Of a DNA stretch of 41,268 nucleotides, positions 6,208 to 40,301 are shown piece by piece. The notes beneath the pieces were generated by a model, which worked only from the letters and a program-made list of their open reading frames with translations, searched no databases and was not told the origin of the DNA. The translations under genes were made by a program, and so were the position numbers. The number at the start of each line of letters is the position of its first letter. Positions within the stretch are counted from its first letter, which is position 1. Origin of the DNA: Deltaproteobacteria bacterium (lineage in GTDB: Bacteria > Desulfobacterota > DSM-4660 > Desulfatiglandales > Desulfatiglandaceae); assembly GCA_021163285.1 (NCBI GenBank), contig JAGGXA010000221.1:1-41268 (forward strand), read 5' to 3'.

Positions 6208-6383
6208 ATACAGCGTAACCCTGTTCACAGGTTCAAGATTAATCGTTCATACCAAGGGGTGCGAATTTACGGGAACGAATGGCATGCAGTTAGGCCACCC
6301 GGCAAAAAATTGACGGGCCGGGTGGTGTCTGTCGCCCCGATGGGGCTTATACAGTACCGCAGGGAAGATAGATAATAGCCTGC

Positions 6384-6548
6384 GAGGCTATCCGAGAATG
6401 CCCTTTTCCCTAAACTCTGCGTTAAGCGATAACAGTCATCTTCGGAGGCAAGGGAGCTTGTGTGACTCCGATATCAACTATATGCCTGCAGTAATTTTTT
6501 TCGCAAGGCTTGATTATGAAAAAAATTGCTATTTTCGGGCAGCCGCCT
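6384..6548. repeat. MITE-like element, family B copy 2
   Basis: gaggctatccgagaatgccctttt...ttgctattttcgggcagccgcc. Confidence 0.8.
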
Positions 6549-6615
6549 GGGGTAGAAACCCCGGGCGGCAAATGGCCGAAACGATGATAAAGGCACAAAA
6601 AAGGCGTCTGCATTT

Positions 6616-8391
6616 ATGAAAAATAGTCCTTCCTGGAATCTTTCTGAAATATATCGAGGGGCTGAAGACCCGGAACTTTATAAAGACCTGAATGCAGCTT
6701 ACGTGAGAGCCGTTTCTTTTTGTCTTTCATATAAGGACAAAATAGATGATACGGCGCTGGATGCCCGGACACTCTGTTCAGCCATCAAAGAATATGAATC
6801 TATTCATGAACAGGGTTTGAAACCCAAAGTCTTTGCCTTTCTAATCTACTCATCAAATACTCTGGATAACAAATATCAAAGCCTGTTTCAGGATGTCAGC
6901 GAAAAATGGCATAAAATCTTAAACGAAACCGCCTTTTTTATCCTTGAGTTAACTGCTCTTCCTGAAACTCTGTTATCAGAGTTGGCTTCTCACCCCTGTC
7001 TTTCAGATTATCGCCATTTTCTCCTCCGGCTGATCCCGAAAAAACCCTATACCCTGAGTCTTGAGGAAGAAAAAATCATCAAAACCAAAGAGCTTTCCGG
7101 AAAGCAGGCTTTTGCATTACTCTACGACGAACTTATCGGATCCCTTTCTTTCCCAGTGGAGATTAATGGCAAGATTAGGCAATCAGGCATTGATCAGATA
7201 CGACACGTGCTTCAGTTACCTGACCCCCTGTTACGGGAAAAAACACTTGATATATATTTGCACCGGCTCGGGGAGCATGAAATAGTATTTAAAAATATCA
7301 TTAATGCCTTAATGCTGGATTATCACCAGGAAGAAAGAATAAGGGGGTTTTCATCTCCGATGCACAACATGCACCTCTTAAATGAGGTAAATGAGGAGAT
7401 GATTGAGACGATGATGATGGTTACAGAGGAAAATTATCCTCTTATAAGGAGGTACTTTCGTACAAAGGCCGAACTGCTCGGCCTGAAAAGGTTAAAAGTC
7501 AGCGACATCTTTGCTCCCTTACAAGAAGAGACATTTCATATCACATTTAAAGATGCAACAGAAATTGTGCTTGATGCCCTGAAAGGGCTTGATCCCGTTT
7601 TTTATTCTATCGCATCCGATTTATTTAAAAAGAAAAGGATAGACGCAGAAACAAGAAAAGGCAAACTGAACGGGGCTTTTTGCAAGTGCGGTCCACCGTC
7701 TCAAGCCCCATACATCTCCATGGCTTACTCAGGGAATATAAAAGACATTATCACACTTGCCCATGAACTGGGGCACGGGATTCATTACAGACTTGCCTCA
7801 AAACAGAGTTACCTGAACTTTGAACCGCGGCCGGTCATTGCGGAAACGGCATCTACATTTTTTGAACTTGTCATCAATGCTCACCTTTTGGAAAAAGATG
7901 AATTTCAGGACTGGAAATATAGACTTGTCGCATCACAGATAGAAGGGTTTTATATTACCATCTTCCGTCAAAATGTGCTTACACGTTTTGAACTGAGCAT
8001 GCATAATTTACGGCGGGATCACCGGCTGACGGGGGAAGAGATCTCTAATATCTGGCGGGAAGAAAATTACAGGCTTTTTGGGGAAACAGTTGAAATAACA
8101 CCGGCCTGCAAATGGGGCTGGATTTCGATCCCCCATTTTATACACCTGCCCTTTTATTGCTACAGCTATATATTCGGTAACCTTCTTGCTATAATCCTGT
8201 ATCAAAACTACATAGACTATGGATGGAATTTTCTTGAAAAGGTTATTGAAATTCTAAGCGGCGGGTCCTCCCGGCCTTCCATTCAAATACTAAACGAGAT
8301 CGGCCTTGATCCCCAAAACCGCTCCTTCTGGGAAAAGGCATTTGATTATATCGGCAGGATGGTAGATTTTATGGAAAAATCCAAAAGATGA
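6616..8391 (+). CDS. M3 family oligoendopeptidase F
   Basis: HELGH zinc motif in TLAHELGHGIHYRLA; typical length of 591 aa. Confidence 0.92.
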   Translation: MKNSPSWNLSEIYRGAEDPELYKDLNAAYVRAVSFCLSYKDKIDDTALDARTLCSAIKEYESIHEQGLKPKVFAFLIYSSNTLDNKYQSLFQDVSEKWHKILNETAFFILELTALPETLLSELASHPCLSDYRHFLLRLIPKKPYTLSLEEEKIIKTKELSGKQAFALLYDELIGSLSFPVEINGKIRQSGIDQIRHVLQLPDPLLREKTLDIYLHRLGEHEIVFKNIINALMLDYHQEERIRGFSSPMHNMHLLNEVNEEMIETMMMVTEENYPLIRRYFRTKAELLGLKRLKVSDIFAPLQEETFHITFKDATEIVLDALKGLDPVFYSIASDLFKKKRIDAETRKGKLNGAFCKCGPPSQAPYISMAYSGNIKDIITLAHELGHGIHYRLASKQSYLNFEPRPVIAETASTFFELVINAHLLEKDEFQDWKYRLVASQIEGFYITIFRQNVLTRFELSMHNLRRDHRLTGEEISNIWREENYRLFGETVEITPACKWGWISIPHFIHLPFYCYSYIFGNLLAIILYQNYIDYGWNFLEKVIEILSGGSSRPSIQILNEIGLDPQNRSFWEKAFDYIGRMVDFMEKSKR

Positions 8392-9225: not shown

Positions 9226-10416
9226 ATGAAGTTAACAAAAATTAATTATAACACGTTTATCAAGGTTTCTATTTTTTTGTTTTGTTTTTTTCTAACAGGT
9301 TTTTTTTGTTCCGCTGTTTCTGCAAAACAAACATCTTCAAAACACTCAAATAAGATAGAATATTTTTTCTGGAATAAGATTGCAAAACGATCAGCTATAC
9401 AGGCATGGAAAATGATGGGACACAAACCTTTACCAAAAAATTCTATTGTTCTCACATCTGCTGGATATTCAGTTATTGATGGTCATACAACAGAAGCCTG
9501 TCTGGATGGCTTAAGACGTTTTACCGGCTCATCCTCAGGCAAAGGGACTTTGATAAGTGTTCATAGAAAGCGGAATTCTCCGCTCTGGTTTTTCTTTTAT
9601 GACAAGAAGACCGGTTACGGGGTTTACTGCGAGATAAATTCCACTTTACTTTCAAGTACGTTATCATGCCTCGATAGTTTTTCTTCAAAAGAAATCAGCA
9701 ATAAATTTACAGAAATCCCCGTAGGCGCTTTCTATAATATACTTTGCATTGAAAGGATTAACGCAGATTATATGCTGTCAAACCTTGAAGAATGGAATGA
9801 TAATTTTTCTGATGAAATATTCGGTGGCAATGAATTCAGTATTGTCACAATAGCAAATATTATTGAAAAAAATGCCCCTTATGATCTAATTCGTTCGGCA
9901 ATGTTTCATGATCACCTCTGCCCCGGTCTCACAAGCGGATATCTTTTGGCAAATTATATTGAAGAGCATTTTCCAATCGACCAGAGTAGTAAATATTTTT
10001 ATTTTTCATTACCCCCATGGTGCAAGGACGATGCTATCCAGATATTATTAAATACAACACCCGGAAAACGGTCTTATGCAGTCACATACCTGACACAAGA
10101 AGATAAAGATAGATTAAAGGGTGAATATCGAAATATTGCTGGAATTTTCTTTCGTAAAAATGACAACGGAATATGGGAAGGCTCTGTGCTTGAATTTGAT
10201 TTTGATCTGGCAAGAGAGATGATGAATATAGATTGGAATGGGATGTACTGGTGGGAATCCAGATTATTAATGGATATCGGTTTTTTGCCATATCTGGAAA
10301 CTCCGGAGATTTTCATCAGCGAGCTGAAACGGTTTTTTCTGGAAGAAGGCGTTGAACCCAAAGACTTTGCTCGTCCCGGTGTTGATGTTTTGGAAGAATT
10401 CGGGCTTGTAGAGTAA
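9226..10416 (+). CDS. Secreted FmdE-domain protein
   Basis: Signal peptide FIKVSIFLFCFFLTGFFCSAVSA; AMFHDHLCPGLTSGYLLANYIEEHF FmdE motif; RBS aaaggag. Confidence 0.8.
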   Translation: MKLTKINYNTFIKVSIFLFCFFLTGFFCSAVSAKQTSSKHSNKIEYFFWNKIAKRSAIQAWKMMGHKPLPKNSIVLTSAGYSVIDGHTTEACLDGLRRFTGSSSGKGTLISVHRKRNSPLWFFFYDKKTGYGVYCEINSTLLSSTLSCLDSFSSKEISNKFTEIPVGAFYNILCIERINADYMLSNLEEWNDNFSDEIFGGNEFSIVTIANIIEKNAPYDLIRSAMFHDHLCPGLTSGYLLANYIEEHFPIDQSSKYFYFSLPPWCKDDAIQILLNTTPGKRSYAVTYLTQEDKDRLKGEYRNIAGIFFRKNDNGIWEGSVLEFDFDLAREMMNIDWNGMYWWESRLLMDIGFLPYLETPEIFISELKRFFLEEGVEPKDFARPGVDVLEEFGLVE

Positions 10417-10801: not shown

Positions 10802-12853
10802 ATGAAAAACTTTATGTTAATAATAATGTTATTTGCCCAATTAGTTCTTTTTTTGCCTTGCAGCTTATTGGGTGAAGAAGAAAAAAATGAGTTTATTGAA
10901 CCTGTAAGGCTGGAAAATATAGTAGTACGTTCTACCAAAGAGGCAGATGAATTAACAACAAAGATTCCGGTGGCTGAATCTACCTGCCAGGTGGCGACGA
11001 CACCGGCGGATGTCCTTGATACGATGTCAGGCATAGATATCAGTAGATCGAGCCTCGGCACACCGGACAGAAATATGATAAGAATTCGAGGGTTGAGTGA
11101 AGACAGGTATATGGTAAATCTTGACGGAAGGCCTCTTTCGGGAGCCGGTGTTTACGGCGGCTACTATATCGACTGGAACATGCTCTCCCTTCAGGATATA
11201 GAAGAGATTGAGGTTATCAAGGGCGCTGCCATGGCCGAATATGGAAACACCCTGGGCGGCGTTATAAATATCGTTCCGAGGGAACCAGCGGAAGAACTTG
11301 AAATAAAGTTTATATCAGGTATCAAGGAGTACGAAACCTGCGATACCAGTGTAATGATCTCAAAGCGCGTCGGTATGTTCGGATTTGTTGCAGGCGGCGG
11401 TTACAGGGAAAGCGACGGTTATTTGCGCAATAATGATCTGGAAAGAACGGATGCTTCCTTTAATTTTTCGTATTATTTCCCTGATGAAGGAAAAATCAAG
11501 CTGGGTGTCCGTTACAACGAAGGGGAATACGGAATGATAGTCGGGAACAAAAAAGAAAGTCCCTATTATGACAATGATTATCCCGAAAGCGATGAAGACA
11601 GACTTGTCGGACCAGGTTTCGGCTGGATTCCGGGGCGATCCCTTGGGGAAAAAAGTTATTACAAAAAAGAAAGATCCGACTGGGACGTTGCTGTGCAAAA
11701 AAAGATTTTCGGGGTTGACTGGGAAGGAAGATGGTATCTGAGCGATGAAGATCGCACTGATTATATTTATGAAATGGCCGACAGAGATCTTGCCATAAAA
11801 CGTGACTGCCCGTCGGATTACTCATGGGGCTGGAGTTTCAAGGGTGAAAAAATAATATCAAACCATACTATTAAGGCCGGAGTTGAAGGGAACTACCTGG
11901 GCTATGGAGGCACAGATTATAAATATGTTGATACAAGCTATGTCAGAGGGCATTTTACCGATTCCGATGACGAGCATGAGCTGTCAAAATTAAATTCCGC
12001 CTTTATACAGGATCGATGGTCTTTGTTATCCAGTCTGGATATTTATCTCGGTGTCAGGGTAGATGATTACAAGGCTGACAATCATGAGTGCGAAAAAACA
12101 GAGGATACACCTGTTTCCCCCAAGTTCGGCCTTTTTTATAAACCAGTGCCGTCAGTTGAAACTTTTGTAACAGTTGCAAGGGCTGTCAATTTTCCGACTA
12201 TCCCGAAATATTACTGGTATTATAACGGATACCAGCCGCCTGACAGAAAAGACCTGGCTTTTGAAGACGCCATGCAGTATGAAATCGGGGGGACTTACAA
12301 AGGGGTTAAAAACACAAGCATTTCGGCAAAGATCTATTATTATGATATTGACGATTATCTAAGATGGATTTTCGGGTATAGTCCGAGTCGTGTCGTGTAC
12401 AACATTAACAATGTTGAACTTACAGGATTTGAACTTGATATTGAATCAAAACTTTTCAGCAATTTTTTTGCATTTGGCAATTATACTTATCAAAGCACTG
12501 ACAAGGAAGGAGATATTCTTGATAAAAGCGATATCTCCGATGAGATCAGTGAACTTCCAGAACACAAGTTTAATGTGGGTGTTAAATATGAAAGGGATGA
12601 CGGCTCACTCGCTAAATTGACTTTAAAATGGGTCGATTCAAGGGAAGTTCCCCTGGGCGAGGCAAAAACAAGTAAAACCGGAAAGATGGATGATTATTTT
12701 CTTTTAAACTGTTTGGTTAAATACCCTGTTTGGAAGGATCATGGATATCTATATGCCGGATGTGAAAACATACTGGATAAAGATTATGAAGAAAGTTATG
12801 GCTATCCCATGCCCGACCGGATGTTTTTTGGTGGAGTCGAAATAAAATTTTAA
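10802..12853 (+). CDS. TonB-dependent outer-membrane receptor
   Basis: Signal peptide, TonB-box-like ENIVVRS, plug IRGLSEDRYMVNLDGRPLSG and IEVIKGAAMAEYGNTLGGVINIVPR, terminal aromatic beta-strand RMFFGGVEIKF. Confidence 0.95.
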   Translation: MKNFMLIIMLFAQLVLFLPCSLLGEEEKNEFIEPVRLENIVVRSTKEADELTTKIPVAESTCQVATTPADVLDTMSGIDISRSSLGTPDRNMIRIRGLSEDRYMVNLDGRPLSGAGVYGGYYIDWNMLSLQDIEEIEVIKGAAMAEYGNTLGGVINIVPREPAEELEIKFISGIKEYETCDTSVMISKRVGMFGFVAGGGYRESDGYLRNNDLERTDASFNFSYYFPDEGKIKLGVRYNEGEYGMIVGNKKESPYYDNDYPESDEDRLVGPGFGWIPGRSLGEKSYYKKERSDWDVAVQKKIFGVDWEGRWYLSDEDRTDYIYEMADRDLAIKRDCPSDYSWGWSFKGEKIISNHTIKAGVEGNYLGYGGTDYKYVDTSYVRGHFTDSDDEHELSKLNSAFIQDRWSLLSSLDIYLGVRVDDYKADNHECEKTEDTPVSPKFGLFYKPVPSVETFVTVARAVNFPTIPKYYWYYNGYQPPDRKDLAFEDAMQYEIGGTYKGVKNTSISAKIYYYDIDDYLRWIFGYSPSRVVYNINNVELTGFELDIESKLFSNFFAFGNYTYQSTDKEGDILDKSDISDEISELPEHKFNVGVKYERDDGSLAKLTLKWVDSREVPLGEAKTSKTGKMDDYFLLNCLVKYPVWKDHGYLYAGCENILDKDYEESYGYPMPDRMFFGGVEIKF

Positions 12854-13343: not shown

Positions 13344-14862
13344 TTGAAAACATTTAAATTTTTTACAAGTATGCGGTTTAGAAAATTTTCCGCAAAATAT
13401 GCAGCCCTTTTTATTATCTTTTTCCTGTTTCCGTGTGCTGCGTATCCGCATACCTATAAAATTTCCGTTATCGTTGATACTGATGCTGCCCTTGATGACA
13501 TACGGGCGATTACAATGCTGATTAATTCCGATGTGGCTGATATTCCGTTGATTGTCACATCCGACGGGGCAGCGTCACCAATAGCAGGGGCCGGAAATCT
13601 GCGCAGGCTCCTTAATTATTTTGAGACAAAAAACACAAAAATCGCTGCCGGACGGGTTCTAAGAAAGGCAGCCCCGCAATGGCGCAGGTTATCAGAGGAT
13701 ATCCGCCTGCCGGAAGAGGCCCTGCCCTCCGATTTGAAACCTTTACAGTTAAACGGCGCACATCAGATTGCAGTCAGCTTAAAAGCCGCGGATGCAGATG
13801 TGATATACCTGTGTCTCGGCCCCCTGACAAATCTTGCTGACGCACTGTTGTCGGAACCTGAGATTAAAAGCAGAATATCGAGGGTGATCTATTTCGGCGC
13901 CTCTCCTGAAAGCCCGTATCCCGGCTGGAACACAATTAGGGATATGGATTCTGCCCGTGTGGTATTTGATTCAGATCTGCTGATCTACTGTTTCGGCCTC
14001 CAAAATGAAAAATTGCCGCACTTTGACTCAAAACTTTATAAACAGATCGAATCATTGAACACACCGGCTTCCAGGCTTGTAACCGGGATGCACAATACCT
14101 CTGCCGCACAAAAGCTGCCGGCTGAAGATCATTTCTACGTTTGGGACGAGTTGGCGGTAATTTTCATGAATCGGCCGTCTTTGTTCAAATTTGTGCCTGC
14201 GAAAGAGAATCCCCTGACAATGCATCTTTTGTCATACGACGCAAAAGGTGCGCATAACACCTATTTGAAACTTTTGGGATTTGCGGCTGACTCTCATATA
14301 CTCTTCCGCCATCTGGTGCTCTTAAAGGAGATTCCATCTGATCCCATACTTTTCAGAGAGGATATCGAGCCGTTTGTTAAAAAAATTATAGAAAAACATG
14401 GCCTTGAAGAATGGAAAGCAGCTTTTTTAACAAATGAATTTCACGGGCATCTCGGGATATATTCAATCATAGCGCCAAGATGGGGGTAAGGGCAAGAGAG
14501 ATCCTGCATGCGCCAATGGACGGAATCCGTGCCGTTTCAAAGGCGGGGAACAAACCGCCTTTAAGCTGCATGAATGACGGACTCCAGGCTGCAGCCGGTG
14601 CCAGCCTTGGAAGGGGCGCAATCCAGATTACAGACACAATAATTTCCCTGCCGCCGGGTTTTCATATAAGGGTAACAAATTGATATTAAAGATAAAAGAA
14701 GAAGTATCTGAAATGATTAAACAGGATATTGATTCGGCTGTTTTAAAATTCGGCGGAATAAATCGTGAATATTTTGCGCATATTCGGAAATTATCCATTA
14801 ATTATTGGCTGGAATTAGACAGAAAGAAGATATTTGAAGAGCTTTTATTAATAGAAAAATAA
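13344..14862 (+). pseudogene. Exported nucleoside-hydrolase-like / FmdE fusion, interrupted by two apparent -1 frameshifts
   Basis: Signal peptide; VDTDAALDDIRAITMLI nucleoside hydrolase motif; NEFHGHLGIYSII then MGVRAREILHAPMDGIRAVSKAGNKPPLSCMNDGLQAAAGASLGRG FmdE motif across ORFs 13344, 14480 and 14680. Confidence 0.75.
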
Positions 14863-14880
14863 AAAATTTCAGGAGGAAAA

Positions 14881-15732
14881 ATGATTATACCAAAATTTAT
14901 AACAGTTTTATTATTCGCGATATTTGTCTCTATTCATTCATTGGCGCTTCCGGCTTATGCAAAAGAGGAAGGGAAACTCTATGTCATCGGGATGGGACCT
15001 TCCGGTCCTGATCTTACTGCTCCAAGGGGACTTGCGATTCTTGAGAAGGCGGATATTTTTCTGTGCCCTCCATATATTCAGATGAATTTTCCCGGGCAGA
15101 TCGACCCTGCAAAGGTTGCCTTTGATCCCTGGGAAGGCATCCATGACGAAGAAGCGATGAAGCTGCGTAAAACCGATTATGATAAATGGCTGCAAAGGGT
15201 GGAAAAGCGAAAGAAAAAGGTTTTCAACTTTGTAATGGATGCCATTAACAAGAAAAAAACCGTAGTTATGCTGGACGGCGGAGACCCTTGTGTTTACGGC
15301 CCTTCCCTTTACTGGCTCTTAAAAGGGTTTGACCATCGATATCTTGAAGTGATCCCCGGAATAAGCGCATTTAATGCAGCAAGCGCTGCCCTTAAAAAAC
15401 CGATGATAGGAGAAGGAATTAACTTTGTCATGCTTACCGCACCCCACTCCATGTTCGGAAGATCGTTTAAAAAGGGAGATGATCTTTTAAAAGAGCTTTC
15501 CGGATATAACGTTACAATGGTTTTTTATATGGCCCTTTCATCAATGGACAAACTCGTTGAGAAATTCAGCAGATATTATCCGCCTGATCTTCCCATGGCC
15601 ATTGTATATTATGCGGGGTACCCGGACAAACAGATGGTATTAAAGACCTCTCTAAGAACTGTGTTGGATGATCTGAAAAAAACTGATGAAAAGTGGCTGG
15701 GGCTTTTGATAATCGGCAAGGCCGTTAAATAA
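14881..15732 (+). CDS. Tetrapyrrole (corrin/porphyrin) methylase-family protein with signal peptide
   Basis: LPAYA-KEEGKLYVIGMGPSGPDLTAPRGLAILEKADIFLCPP; DGGDPCVYGPSLY; PGISAFNAASAAL; RBS aggagg. Confidence 0.85.
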   Translation: MIIPKFITVLLFAIFVSIHSLALPAYAKEEGKLYVIGMGPSGPDLTAPRGLAILEKADIFLCPPYIQMNFPGQIDPAKVAFDPWEGIHDEEAMKLRKTDYDKWLQRVEKRKKKVFNFVMDAINKKKTVVMLDGGDPCVYGPSLYWLLKGFDHRYLEVIPGISAFNAASAALKKPMIGEGINFVMLTAPHSMFGRSFKKGDDLLKELSGYNVTMVFYMALSSMDKLVEKFSRYYPPDLPMAIVYYAGYPDKQMVLKTSLRTVLDDLKKTDEKWLGLLIIGKAVK

Positions 15733-17117
15733 TGAAAAATCATTTAGATAATAATGAATTAAAAAGAGAAATCGGACTATTTTCCGCAGTGATTTTAGTA
15801 GTTGCCAACATGGTGGGAACCGGCATATTCACTACCTCCGGCTTTATCATGAAAGAGCTTGGCAATCCGCAAACCATGCTGCTCTGCTGGTTTACGGGCG
15901 GCATATTCGCCCTGTGCGGCGCTCTGTGTTATGGAGAACTTGGGACCATGTTCCCAAAAGCAGGCGGCGAGTATGTTTTTTTGCGGGAGAGTTGTGGTAA
16001 AGGCATGGCCTTCCTTTCCGGGTGGATATCTCTAATCGTGGGATTCTCAGCCCCGATTGCCGCCGCGGCCATTGCCTTTGCCTCCTATTTTTTCCGTGTA
16101 CTGCCGGATCTTTCCGGCTCGCAGTTCACCCTCAGTGTTTTGGGCGTCAGGATCTTTACCATATCACCTGTCACCATTACGGCTGCATTTGTGATCATTA
16201 TCTTTTCGCTGATTCATTATCACAGCCTCCGGATGGGCGCGGGTGTCCAGAATGTATTGACCCTGTTCAAAACAGGTCTGATAGTTGTCTTTGTTGCGGC
16301 CGGTCTGTTCGCCGGGCATGGTTCAACAGATCATTTCGCAGGGGAATTCATACTAAGTTCTATATTTCTGGACAGGTTTGCCATTTCCCTGATCTTTGTA
16401 TCATTTGCTTACAGCGGCTGGAATGCGGTTGCCTACTTAGGGGGTGAAATCAAAAATCCGGGCAGAAACATTCCTATGGCTCTTTTTAGCGGCACATTTC
16501 TGGTTATATTGTTTTATATGCTTTTAAATGTGGTATATATTTATGCGCTTTCTCCAAAGGAGATGAGCGGGATTCTTGAAGTGGGAACCGAATCGGCAGC
16601 GCGATTATTCGGCGGTCGTATCGGTAAATATTTCAGCGGAGCCATTGCAGCGGGACTTCTCTCTGTTTTAAGCGCCATGATTATGACCGGACCAAGGGTC
16701 TATTACGCCATGGCAAGAGACGGTGTTTTTTTTAAACTTTTCGGCAAAGTGAACAAGATTCACAGAACTCCGGCCTGGTCTATCTTTTTGCAGGCAGGCA
16801 TAGCAATTATTATGGTTTTTTCCGCTTCGTTTGACAAGCTGCTTTTATACATAGGCTTTACCCTCTCATTATTCGCCATGCTTACTGCAGCCGGAATGAT
16901 GGCTCTCAGGATCAGAAAACCGGACATCAAGCGCACTTACAAGACCTTCGGATATCCTGTTACACCACTGGTTTTTATAGCGGGAAACCTATGGATTATC
17001 TATTACTGCATAAAAAGCAGGCCTGTTGCATCCATGTTCGGAGCTGAAACAACAGGCCTTGGTATATTGGCATATCTATATTTCTATAAAAAGGGAAAGC
17101 AGAACCATGCGATATAA
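15732..17117 (+). CDS. APC-superfamily amino acid permease
   Basis: VVANMVGTGIFTTSGFI; about 12 hydrophobic helices; start overlaps upstream stop (taATG). Confidence 0.9.
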   Translation: MKNHLDNNELKREIGLFSAVILVVANMVGTGIFTTSGFIMKELGNPQTMLLCWFTGGIFALCGALCYGELGTMFPKAGGEYVFLRESCGKGMAFLSGWISLIVGFSAPIAAAAIAFASYFFRVLPDLSGSQFTLSVLGVRIFTISPVTITAAFVIIIFSLIHYHSLRMGAGVQNVLTLFKTGLIVVFVAAGLFAGHGSTDHFAGEFILSSIFLDRFAISLIFVSFAYSGWNAVAYLGGEIKNPGRNIPMALFSGTFLVILFYMLLNVVYIYALSPKEMSGILEVGTESAARLFGGRIGKYFSGAIAAGLLSVLSAMIMTGPRVYYAMARDGVFFKLFGKVNKIHRTPAWSIFLQAGIAIIMVFSASFDKLLLYIGFTLSLFAMLTAAGMMALRIRKPDIKRTYKTFGYPVTPLVFIAGNLWIIYYCIKSRPVASMFGAETTGLGILAYLYFYKKGKQNHAI

Positions 17118-17571
17118 AATGCTGACGATGTATTTATGTGCGATAATTTCTTTGCTTCCCTTTCAGGCTTACGCCCACGGCGTAAAAGGAAAGGTGGATG
17201 CCGGCGGTGTTGTGGTATCAGCCGAATACGACGACGGGGAGCCGATGAGCTACGCCAGGGTAAAGATTTCAGCCCCTGCTGCAAAGTTAAGCTTTCAATC
17301 CGGAAGAACAGACAGAAACGGCCGGTTTTGTTTTTTTCCGGATATGCCCGGAGAATGGAAAGTGGTGGTGGATGATGAGATGGGACACAGACTCGAAGTT
17401 CCGGTTACTGTTGATAAGGCAATGGAACTGAAAGCAGATGAACAGGCAGGCGGCTATTTGTCGAAATATGAAGGGGCGCTTATGGGTATCTGTATCATTT
17501 TTGGCATTTTTGGGTCTCTTTTAGGGTGGAGGGGCTTTAGAAAGGCTAAAGGCGAGAATTCAAGAAAATGA
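17107..17571 (+). CDS. NikL-like / carboxypeptidase-regulatory-like periplasmic membrane protein
   Basis: Signal peptide ...FQAYAHGVKGKV, YDDGEPMSYARVKI, GRTDRNGRFCFFPDMPGEWKVVVDDEMGH, C-terminal TM; overlaps permease end by 11 nt. Confidence 0.65.
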   Translation: MRYKMLTMYLCAIISLLPFQAYAHGVKGKVDAGGVVVSAEYDDGEPMSYARVKISAPAAKLSFQSGRTDRNGRFCFFPDMPGEWKVVVDDEMGHRLEVPVTVDKAMELKADEQAGGYLSKYEGALMGICIIFGIFGSLLGWRGFRKAKGENSRK

Positions 17572-22641: not shown

Positions 22642-22980
22642 TTAATTATGGTCCATTATTTGACATTGTTTTCTATATGAAGAAGGAGTCATTCCTTCAT
22701 GCCTGCGGAATATCTTGTCAAAGTATGAGAGATCGTTATAGCCGATAGCATAACATACGTCAGTGATACGATTGTTCTGGTCTTTCAGAAGGGCCTTTGC
22801 GGCCTGTACTCTCATTTTGTTGTGATAAGACTTAAAAGTCCAGCCGGTAAAGGCCTTGAAACTCCTTGTAAAGTGAAATTTGCTTATGCCGCTTTTGCTT
22901 GATAAATCATGCAGACTTAATGGCTTCTCAAGATTGTCTTCGATGAAGCGCTGTGCTTTTTCCATATCAATAGCGTCCAT
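22642..22980 (-). CDS. AraC-type helix-turn-helix regulator, DNA-binding domain only
   Basis: IEDNLEKPLSLHDLSSKSGISKFHFTRSFKAFTGWTFKSYHNKMRVQAAKALL...ICYAIGYNDLSYFDKIFRRHEGMTPSSYR-type pattern. Confidence 0.9.
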   Translation of the reverse strand: MDAIDMEKAQRFIEDNLEKPLSLHDLSSKSGISKFHFTRSFKAFTGWTFKSYHNKMRVQAAKALLKDQNNRITDVCYAIGYNDLSYFDKIFRRHEGMTPSSYRKQCQIMDHN

Positions 22981-23332: not shown

Positions 23333-23419
23333 TCCCTTTTTTATCCTCAAGAACTATTGCATTACCCCTTGCCACGGGAATAGCGCATAAGACCTTTCAA
23401 AAAAAGTCTTTTTATCTAT

Positions 23420-23590
23420 GTTTAGGCAGGTCTTCTGACTTCCGGATCATCCTAATTGCTTCGTCTTCCCATTCAACAGTTGAACAGTGACATTATAAAG
23501 CGTTTGTCCCCGGTTACAGCGGCGGGCCCGTCTCCGATTTACACAGAGTTCCCTGTTAGGCTCAATATGAGCACCTTTACATTATAAAAA
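23420..23590 (-). ncRNA. Cobalamin riboswitch
   Basis: Minus strand: GGTGCTCATATTGAGCCTAACAGGGAACTCTGTG...CCGCTGTAACCGGGGACAAACGC...TGTCACTGTT...TGGGAAGACG...CCGGAAGTCAGAAGACCTGCCT matches conserved cobalamin riboswitch segments. Confidence 0.93.
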
Positions 23591-23986
23591 AATAATAGTA
23601 TAAATTGCGGTAAGTTGTCAATAAAAAATGACAGGAAGGAATTATAACCTCATTCCGGATTGTGGAAATAATTGTAACTGAATTTGGCATCGCATCTATT
23701 TTTGTCCACGCAAAAACCATACTCAAAAAATTAACATGACATTACTGAAAAAATAGGCTAATATCAAATAATTGACTTTGTTTTTGTGTCAAAAGACCGG
23801 ACGGTATTTTGTCCAAATTCCAGGGGGGTGTTGGTGAACCCTTACCCTGGGTGTTTGATCTCGGTGAGCCGGGCTGTGCGCTTCCAACAAGTATTCTGAA
23901 GATGAAAACATGGTTCAACGAAAAAGTCAACCTGACACGGATGCAATACAAAAAAGTAATTAATAAGGAATGTGACAATTTTTTTG

Positions 23987-37511: not shown

Positions 37512-40301
37512 CTATTCCTGAATAGATACTGGCTGGGCCTTTTCCAGCCGAATAGCGCATACCTTATATTCAGGGATCCTCGCTATTGGATCGAGGGCCG
37601 CGTTTGTCAGTGTATTCGCTGCGGCTTTGGCATAATGAAACGGAATGAAGACCGTTCCATCAACAGCTTTTTCAGATATCATAGCCTTTGCCTCAATAGT
37701 TCCGCGTCTTGATGATATTTTTAAGTTGCTGCCTTCATGTAAATTATAAGAGGCGGCATCTTGTTGGGAAATCTCAACAAAGCACTCCGGTGCAAGTTCA
37801 TTTAATCCCTGAGATTTCATTGTCATGGTGCCTGTGTGGAAGTGGTACAAAACACGGCCGGTTGTCAGATATAGAGGATATTCATCATCAGGAACCTCCG
37901 CAGGAGGGATATAGTCTATAGCATGAAATACTCCTAAACCGCATGTGAACTTACCAACATGCAGGCAGGGTGTTCCCGGGTGATCCGTGGCAGGACAAGG
38001 CCAGGGCAACCCTTTTGTTTCGAGACGGTCGTAGGTTATTCCACGATAAGATGGCGTAACTTCGTTGATCTCATTCATTATTGCCCGGGAATTTGCGTAT
38101 TCCATTGGATAACCCATGCGCCTTGAGAGGTCGGCTATTATTTCCCAGTCTTCTTTTGCCTGCCCTGGTGGATCCAAAGCCTTTCGTACCATCTGCACCT
38201 TTCTTTCAGTGTTGGTGAATGTGCCTTTTTTTTCAGCAAATGAGGCTGCAGGCAGCACCACGTCCGCTATCAGGGCTGTCTCAGTCAAGAATATGTCCTG
38301 AACTACCAAAAAATCCAGGTTCTCCATGCTCTTTTTGACATGACCAAGGTTCGGGTCCGATACCATCGGATTTTCACCGATAATATAAAGGGCTTTCATC
38401 TTGCCTTCGTGAGCCCTTTCCATCATATCAGTAACGGTCAACCCGGGTTTTTCGGGAAGTTTTTCAACACCCCATGCCTTTGCCATACGTTCCCGCACAG
38501 CAGGATCACCCACCTTCTGGTAACCTGTGTATACATTGGGCAGTCCACCCATGTCACAGGCGCCCTGTACGTTATTCTGCCCGCGGAGTGGATTGACTCC
38601 GCCCCCTGTTATTCCCATGTTGCCGCAGAGCATGGCCAGATTGGCTAATGATTTGACGTTGTCCGTCCCGGTTGTGTGCTGAGTTATGCCCATTGCATAA
38701 ACAATCGATGCAGCCGGTGCCTGACCATAGAGACGGGCAGCATCAATAAGCTGGTCCTTTGGTATGCCGCTTATTTCTTCCACATATTCCGGCGTGTATT
38801 TCTCAACCTTCTTTTTCAATTCTTCAAATCCGACTGTCCTCGATTGAACATAATCCTTTGCATATAGATTTTCTTTGATTATTACATTCATCATTCCGTT
38901 AATAAATGCCACATCCGTGCCTAAGACAGGTCTTAGCCAGTGTGTGGCAAAACGTGTGATATCGATCTTGCGGGGATCAAACACAATCAGTTTCGTATCC
39001 TTAAAAGTTACTGCCCTTTTTATATATGATGATAAAACAGGGTGGTTTTCAGTGGTATTGGAACCGACTATCATTATCACGTTTGTCTTTTCGAGATCTT
39101 CAATCGGGTTTGTCATTGCGCCACTACCAAAAGCCGCGGCCAGACCGGCCACTGTAGAGGAGTGTCAGAGTCTTGCGCAGTGGTCTATGTTATTTGTCCC
39201 GATAACGGCCCTTGCAAATTTCTGAGCGATGTAATTCTCTTCATTGGTGGTTCGGGCACTCGTCAGCACCTGAATGGCATCAGGGCCTGATTCGTCCTTG
39301 ATCCGTTTCAATTTATCCGCAACGAGGTCAAGGGCTTCATCCCAGGAAGCCTCTCTGAAGGTACCGTTTTCCTTGATAAGAGGGGTTTTGAGCCTTTTCT
39401 TGTCGTTAACGAAATCATACCCGAATCGACCTTTTACACAGAGACTTCCGAAGTTTGGCGCAATATCGTTTACACCGGTTACCTTGACGACCTTATTATC
39501 TCTGACATGAAGATAAATCTGGCAGCCTACACCACAATAGGAACAGGTGGTATGAACTTTCTTCGTCTTTGATACCGAGCGTTCTTTCAAAAGGTCCTGT
39601 TTTGGAATAAGGGCGCCCACGGGACAGGCCTGTATGCATTCTCCACAAAAGACGCAATCACTATCCTTGAGGGCCAGATCCGCCTTTGCCACAATTTTCA
39701 GGGTAGAGCCCCTGTAGCCATAACTTATTGCGTTATTTACCTGAACTTCATTGCAGGCCTGGACGCAACGTCCGCAAAGGATGCACCTTGAAAAATCACG
39801 GATTATGAAGGGGTTTACATTCTCGATTGAATACTTTGTTTCGGTAGGTAAAAAGCGATTGGTATTCACCTGATAACGGATAGCAAGGTCTTGTAAACGG
39901 CAGTCACCGTGGGCGGGACAAAGCTCTTTATGTTCATTCGTTTCCATTGCTCTAAGCTGGAAATCCGTCCAGGAATCCATATCCATATCCTGGGCAAGAC
40001 AGTTGTGCTGGCCTGAGGCAAGCAGTAATTCAATATTTAATTTTCTTGCTTTAATAACCCTTTCGGTATCTGTTCTGACAACCATATCGGACGCAGCAGG
40101 AGTAGCGCAGGATGCCACCAGGTTTCTGGCGCCTTCCACTTCAACGAGGCATACTCTGCACGCCCCTGTAGGGCTTGTTCCCTTTAAATAGCAAAGTGTC
40201 GGTATAAAAATCCCATTTCGCTCTGCCACCTGAAGAATAGTATCGTCCTGGTTGAAGGTAAACTCTTGACCATCTATGACTATAATATTTTGAGAATTCA
40301 T
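37512..40301 (-). CDS. fdhA: Formate dehydrogenase catalytic (alpha) subunit, selenocysteine-containing; TGA (39167-39165) read as Sec
   Basis: ORFs 39165..40301 and 37512..39152 are in frame: ...NNIDHCARL-U(TGA)-HSSTVAGLAAAFGSGAMTN; N-terminal 2Fe-2S and 4Fe-4S motifs. Confidence 0.93.
39136..39152 (-). promoter_or_regulatory. Bacterial SECIS apical stem-loop
   Basis: 12 nt after the TGA: GTGGCC-GGTCT-GGCCGC, apical loop GGTCT. Confidence 0.8.

Follow-up and report, generated by a model that had tools for sequence, protein, structure and literature searches.

By the textbook view, tetrapyrrole methylases reside in the cytosol because this is where SAM is found, and an exported branch of these proteins raises the question of what role a SAM-type enzyme would have outside the cytoplasm. 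This question arises at a locus in a Desulfatiglandaceae bacterium (assembly GCA_021163285.1, contig JAGGXA010000221.1), for which we analyzed a stretch of 41,268 nucleotides, hereafter the window. Here, a gene for a protein with a TP_methylase fold and a signal peptide (TPM) lies between genes for a TonB-dependent receptor and an APC-superfamily permease (Table 1).

An exported branch of the tetrapyrrole-methylase fold

The reading frame given for this gene in the original prediction was recovered exactly, with its ATG start placed four bases 3′ of an AGGAGG motif. The encoded N-terminus, MIIPKFITVLLFAIFVSIHSLALPAYA^KEEGK, has the layout of a cleavable Sec signal peptide (short basic n-region, hydrophobic core, AYA-K site), and beta-strand 1 of the AlphaFold model spans residues 33–37. 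The position of the signal peptide is conserved in TPM orthologs, and all 79–87% identical orthologs with an N-terminus on the contig begin with one. Using our own heuristic score, a signal peptide was detected in 70 of 79 family members, two of the score-negative ones being truncated at the N-terminus, versus 0 of 27 cytosolic TP methylases. The signal peptide originally proposed is thus borne out by sequence features, orthologs, and the family-wide score. Inspection of the sequence also upheld the claim that no internal Met could yield a leaderless form, as the stretch from the signal to the first motif contains no ATG; codon 21 is a TTG, but lacks a Shine-Dalgarno site.

Table 1 Position and supporting evidence for TPM and neighboring features in the window
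Feature	Position	Strand	Evidence
FmdE-domain protein, exported, possible partner	9226..10416	+	PF02663, 62 bits; FmdE near other TPM loci
TonB-dependent receptor, CU/PCPU-related group, without Sec	10802..12853	+	PF00593/PF07715; NF049946, 269 bits, below cut-off; compared with Sec receptors
IU nucleoside hydrolase (IUNH) domain, exported	13344..14489	+	PF01156, 91 bits
Shine-Dalgarno AGGAGG of TPM	14871..14876	+	Sequence
Exported TP_methylase-fold protein (TPM)	14881..15732	+	283 aa; PF00590, 113.3 bits; cobM_cbiF; Foldseek 1cbf CbiF
Signal peptide of TPM, 27 aa, predicted cleavage AYA^KEEG	14881..14961	+	Sequence, ortholog position, heuristic score
APC-superfamily amino-acid permease	15732..17117	+	PF13520, 194 bits; beside TPM in many loci
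NikL-like protein with signal peptide	17107..17571	+	NF058648 NikL family, 57.3 bits, cut-off of 100 not reached

The Pfam match to TP_methylase covers residues 32–260 of TPM and scores 113.3 bits, against a gathering score of 27.8. The nearest NCBIfam model was cobM_cbiF (TIGR01465), at 88.4 bits and under its cut-off of 259.65, while SUMT/CobA (TIGR01469) reached 68.6 bits for a cut-off of 185. CbiF ranked first in a PDB sequence search and was also the top Foldseek match (1cbf; E 6e-15, probability 1.00, TM-score by target 0.74) of the AlphaFold model (pLDDT 82), i.e., the fold as modeled is a TP_methylase fold nearest to CbiF. The host genome encodes separate cytosolic CbiF, SUMT, CbiL, CbiH, CbiE, and RsmI proteins (names assigned by motif, with a further check in the case of CbiF and SUMT), which makes TPM an additional paralog. 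A role as substitute for a missing CbiF was considered and rejected, since the genome has its own cytosolic CbiF.

TPM differs from both CbiF/CobM and SUMT in catalytic residues and in other features. With CbiF/CobM, the precorrin-4 C11-methyltransferase (cobalt-precorrin form included) and its best sequence and structure match, TPM shares the fold, the GxGP, GDP, and PG[ILMV][SG] loops, and a C-terminal VxxA pattern. Unlike CbiF/CobM, it is exported, has lost the Asp of GPGD (the GxGPGD loop reads GMGPSGP), has the Arg and His before GDP replaced, carries an extra FDPW-type insert, is found in a TonB-receptor context with no cob operon, and falls separately in the tree. With SUMT/CobA/CysG, the uroporphyrinogen-III C-methyltransferases, it has the fold and the SAM-contact positions in common, but TPM is exported, forms its own clade, and does not conserve the catalytic Asp/Lys region, which we take to be Asp248/Lys270 in CysG numbering.

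Nine positions, presumably those contacting SAM in CysG, were nevertheless more conserved than the rest across 82 members (entropy of 1.25 vs 2.16 bits, p ~0.003), in a family whose median identity is 30%, and G39, G134, P136, G160, and A245 were near-invariant in the family alignment. The suggestion that the SAM and substrate motifs are intact therefore largely holds for the SAM-contact positions, and fails for the lost Asp. Members without a signal peptide retain the same motifs as the exported ones.

Class and phylum searches yielded ~80 relatives of TPM across Desulfobacterota (41 of 395 genomes with a match at E <1e-40 in the phylum search), mostly from this one phylum; their loci are not phylogenetically independent. 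Exported domains stood apart from CbiF and SUMT in a 108-domain tree, and a constraint tree uniting all 82 family domains scored above the free tree (p-AU 0.69). The 82 domains are compatible with a single clade that excludes the cytosolic CbiF, SUMT, CbiL, CbiH, CbiE, and RsmI of the host genome. From this, it is most likely that export arose once and was then kept, with losses in members of two genera (L058 and L060; L118–L120), whose signal-less proteins would be cytosolic. By these sequence comparisons, TPM probably represents an exported, single-origin branch of the tetrapyrrole-methylase fold. One further member, labeled Bacteroidetes (L012), lies on a possibly misbinned 4-kb MAG contig with near-identity to Eth-SRB2. 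Among the matches listed in a plasmid search, TP methylases were <30% identical and nearly all annotated as cobM/cobA-type. In the literature searched, with few matches examined closely, no description of an exported TP methylase was found, and the branch is apparently undescribed so far.

Domain fusions and gene neighborhoods

In one TPM subgroup, an N-terminal Oxidored_molyb-type region is fused to the TP methylase, and 12 of the long members contain a CxxCH motif; attachment of c-type heme takes place at the periplasmic face of the membrane. Another protein (L117) combines DUF4198 and TP_methylase behind a single signal peptide. Both the c-heme/Oxidored_molyb and the DUF4198 fusions support a periplasmic location; together with the clade as a whole and its TonB linkage, they make export well supported beyond the single protein of the window. 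A further subgroup consists of tandem TPM–TPM proteins. Exported proteins joining a CxxCH-bearing Oxidored_molyb-like region to a TP methylase were observed, e.g., at 9318–11084 of L066, in L056, L064, and L065, and in others.

Gene neighborhoods, delineated with a simple longest-ORF caller, set TPM loci apart from those of cytosolic relatives. Within 1.5 kb of TPM, a TonB receptor was found in 43, DUF4198 in 24, and an APC permease in 20 of 62 loci, while each of these was found at 0 of 30 cytosolic CbiF/SUMT loci. ExbB/ExbD/TonB, NikL, IUNH-FmdE fusions, FecCD, and Peripla_BP_2 also recur near TPM genes. In the window, the gene order is FmdE, TonB receptor, IUNH(-FmdE, frameshifted), TPM, APC, and NikL; TPM and APC overlap by 1 base (TAATG), the NikL-like gene overlaps the APC gene, and no terminator-like site was found on the plus strand between 12800 and 17800. 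The C-terminal FmdE domain of the IUNH gene continues in other frames to ~14862 through two frameshifts, so that this gene is either a pseudogene or an assembly error; IUNH-FmdE fusions are intact in L046 and L009. As in the window, TPM and the APC gene are overlapping or directly abutting in L011, L012, L045, L056, L066, L067, L132–L134, L138, and L142. The permease was considered as a TPM-only partner and rejected as such, since its subfamily also occurs apart from TPM. Signal-less members lie close to FecCD importers, although a rule by which an ABC importer replaces the signal peptide is suggestive only, L047 and L054 having both. TupA-like tungstate-binding proteins are encoded near TPM in L062, L065, L068, and L137.

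In at least 16 loci (L046, L047, L049, L051–L055, L058, L060, and L105–L110), the receptor directly upstream of TPM contains a single TGA in frame, always at the same site, which in most reads SRSYRLPCP-U-DYYWWARC. Three receptors tested matched the PCPU type (NF049947) at 1148–1287 bits for a cut-off of 800. Based on the conserved site and this match, the TGA-containing receptors beside TPM are predicted PCPU-type selenoproteins, from which the window's receptor differs in having no Cys-Pro-Sec. PMC12013277 reports on a TonB receptor that is a selenoprotein; a term search of this paper and of PMC13188914 returned no mention of tetrapyrrole enzymes. Near the TPM locus L052, which has a TGA-containing receptor, a tRNA-Sec and a SelB-like gene lie at 6304–8391. 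Separately, the formate dehydrogenase alpha gene of the window (37512–40301, minus strand) is interrupted by a TGA codon in frame (CARL-U-HSS); its product is a likely selenoprotein, and the organism therefore probably decodes Sec.

NikK and NikL have been proposed as periplasmic components of nickel uptake in delta-proteobacteria (PMC545781). Components of this DUF4198/NikL system neighbor TPM, and in one case DUF4198 is directly fused to it; classic nik operons, however, encode NikMQO in place of the TonB receptor and TP methylase seen at TPM loci. The host genome also has a CbiM/NikM gene next to one for DUF4198. No cobalamin riboswitch was found at the TPM loci of the window and 14 related loci, and no NikR site (GTGTTAC-N13/14-GTAACAC or reversed) at TPM loci, the 2 loose matches comparing with 14 in one shuffle. 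Away from TPM, the window contains a cobalamin riboswitch (23408–23593, minus strand; 116 bits). It is not directly followed by a long ORF, and the first ORF further along the minus strand encodes an AraC-type regulator (22642–22980).

Candidate functions in the periplasm

The operon partners (APC permease, NikL, DUF4198, and TonB receptor) narrow the likely function of TPM to metal or metallo-tetrapyrrole uptake. The TP-methylase fold binds tetrapyrroles in cobalamin and siroheme relatives, and this property, together with the proposed role of NikK/NikL, leads us to prefer a Ni/Co-tetrapyrrole or similar chelate as cargo. We thus tentatively favor, at somewhat less than even odds, a TonB-dependent module for uptake of a Ni/Co chelate, probably a metallo-tetrapyrrole, in which TPM would be the periplasmic part. 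The TonB receptor would import a metal chelate, most likely a Ni- or Co-tetrapyrrole or similar metallophore, which TPM would take up in the groove that accommodates precorrins in its cytosolic homologs. The ligand or metal would then be handed to DUF4198/NikL, i.e., NikK/NikL-type Ni/Co proteins, and on to an inner-membrane transporter, either the APC permease or, in some genomes, a FecCD ABC importer. We infer that binding or processing, and not methylation, would be the main task of TPM, as we do for the cargo and the order of hand-over. Signal-less members with conserved motifs next to FecCD would fit a protein acting on its cargo wherever this cargo arrives. These few members would nonetheless be cytosolic, which counts against the proposed periplasmic module, as do the lack of a cobalamin riboswitch or NikR site at TPM loci, the presence of the APC subfamily away from TPM, and the pocket itself: a pure binding protein need not retain a SAM pocket, yet this pocket is conserved.

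That conservation, at above-average levels despite the low identity within the family and with some near-invariant residues, would fit a periplasmic methyltransferase, a distinctly less probable function in which the adjacent APC permease would export SAM (or exchange it for SAH) and an imported metallo-tetrapyrrole or metallophore would be methylated. An exported nucleoside hydrolase, where present, may then destroy SAH. The overlapping or abutting APC genes are consistent with this scheme, as is the co-occurrence of APC and TPM in 25 genomes versus ~4 expected, a figure inflated by genome relatedness; signal-less members, moreover, keep the motifs and are encoded beside FecCD importers, in a setting with access to SAM. 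However, pocket motifs are also critical for holding the TP-methylase fold together, same-group APC permeases occur without TPM, and the IUNH domain is found in few loci and is broken in the window. The periplasm, moreover, is not known to contain a SAM pool.

It is more doubtful still that TPM acts as another enzyme on the cargo, e.g., by assisting metal removal from a metallo-tetrapyrrole after its import, with NikK/NikL-type proteins then importing the ion. The DUF4198-TPM fusion and the DUF4198/NikL neighbors would suit this activity, and CbiK-P of Desulfovibrio, an exported cobaltochelatase, offers a precedent in that it likewise places a tetrapyrrole-pathway fold in a sulfate reducer's periplasm, albeit with a different fold and reaction from TPM. 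The retained SAM pocket argues against metal stripping, and we know of no chelatase activity for the TP-methylase fold alone. Finally, a misassigned start, named in the original prediction as one observation that would refute it, or a hydrophobic N-terminus arising by chance, either of which would leave TPM cytosolic, is highly improbable: the codon-21 TTG could serve as a start, but the strong Shine-Dalgarno site at the ATG, the orthologs and family-wide signal peptides, the 0 of 27 controls, and the heme-c and DUF4198 fusions all contradict it.

Taken together, the exported clade, its fusions, and its linkage to TonB receptors suggest either that sulfate reducers have an unrecognized periplasmic carrier for tetrapyrroles or metals, or that SAM chemistry takes place in their periplasm. 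If TPM were indeed a methyltransferase, SAM chemistry would be performed on imported cargo outside the cytoplasm.
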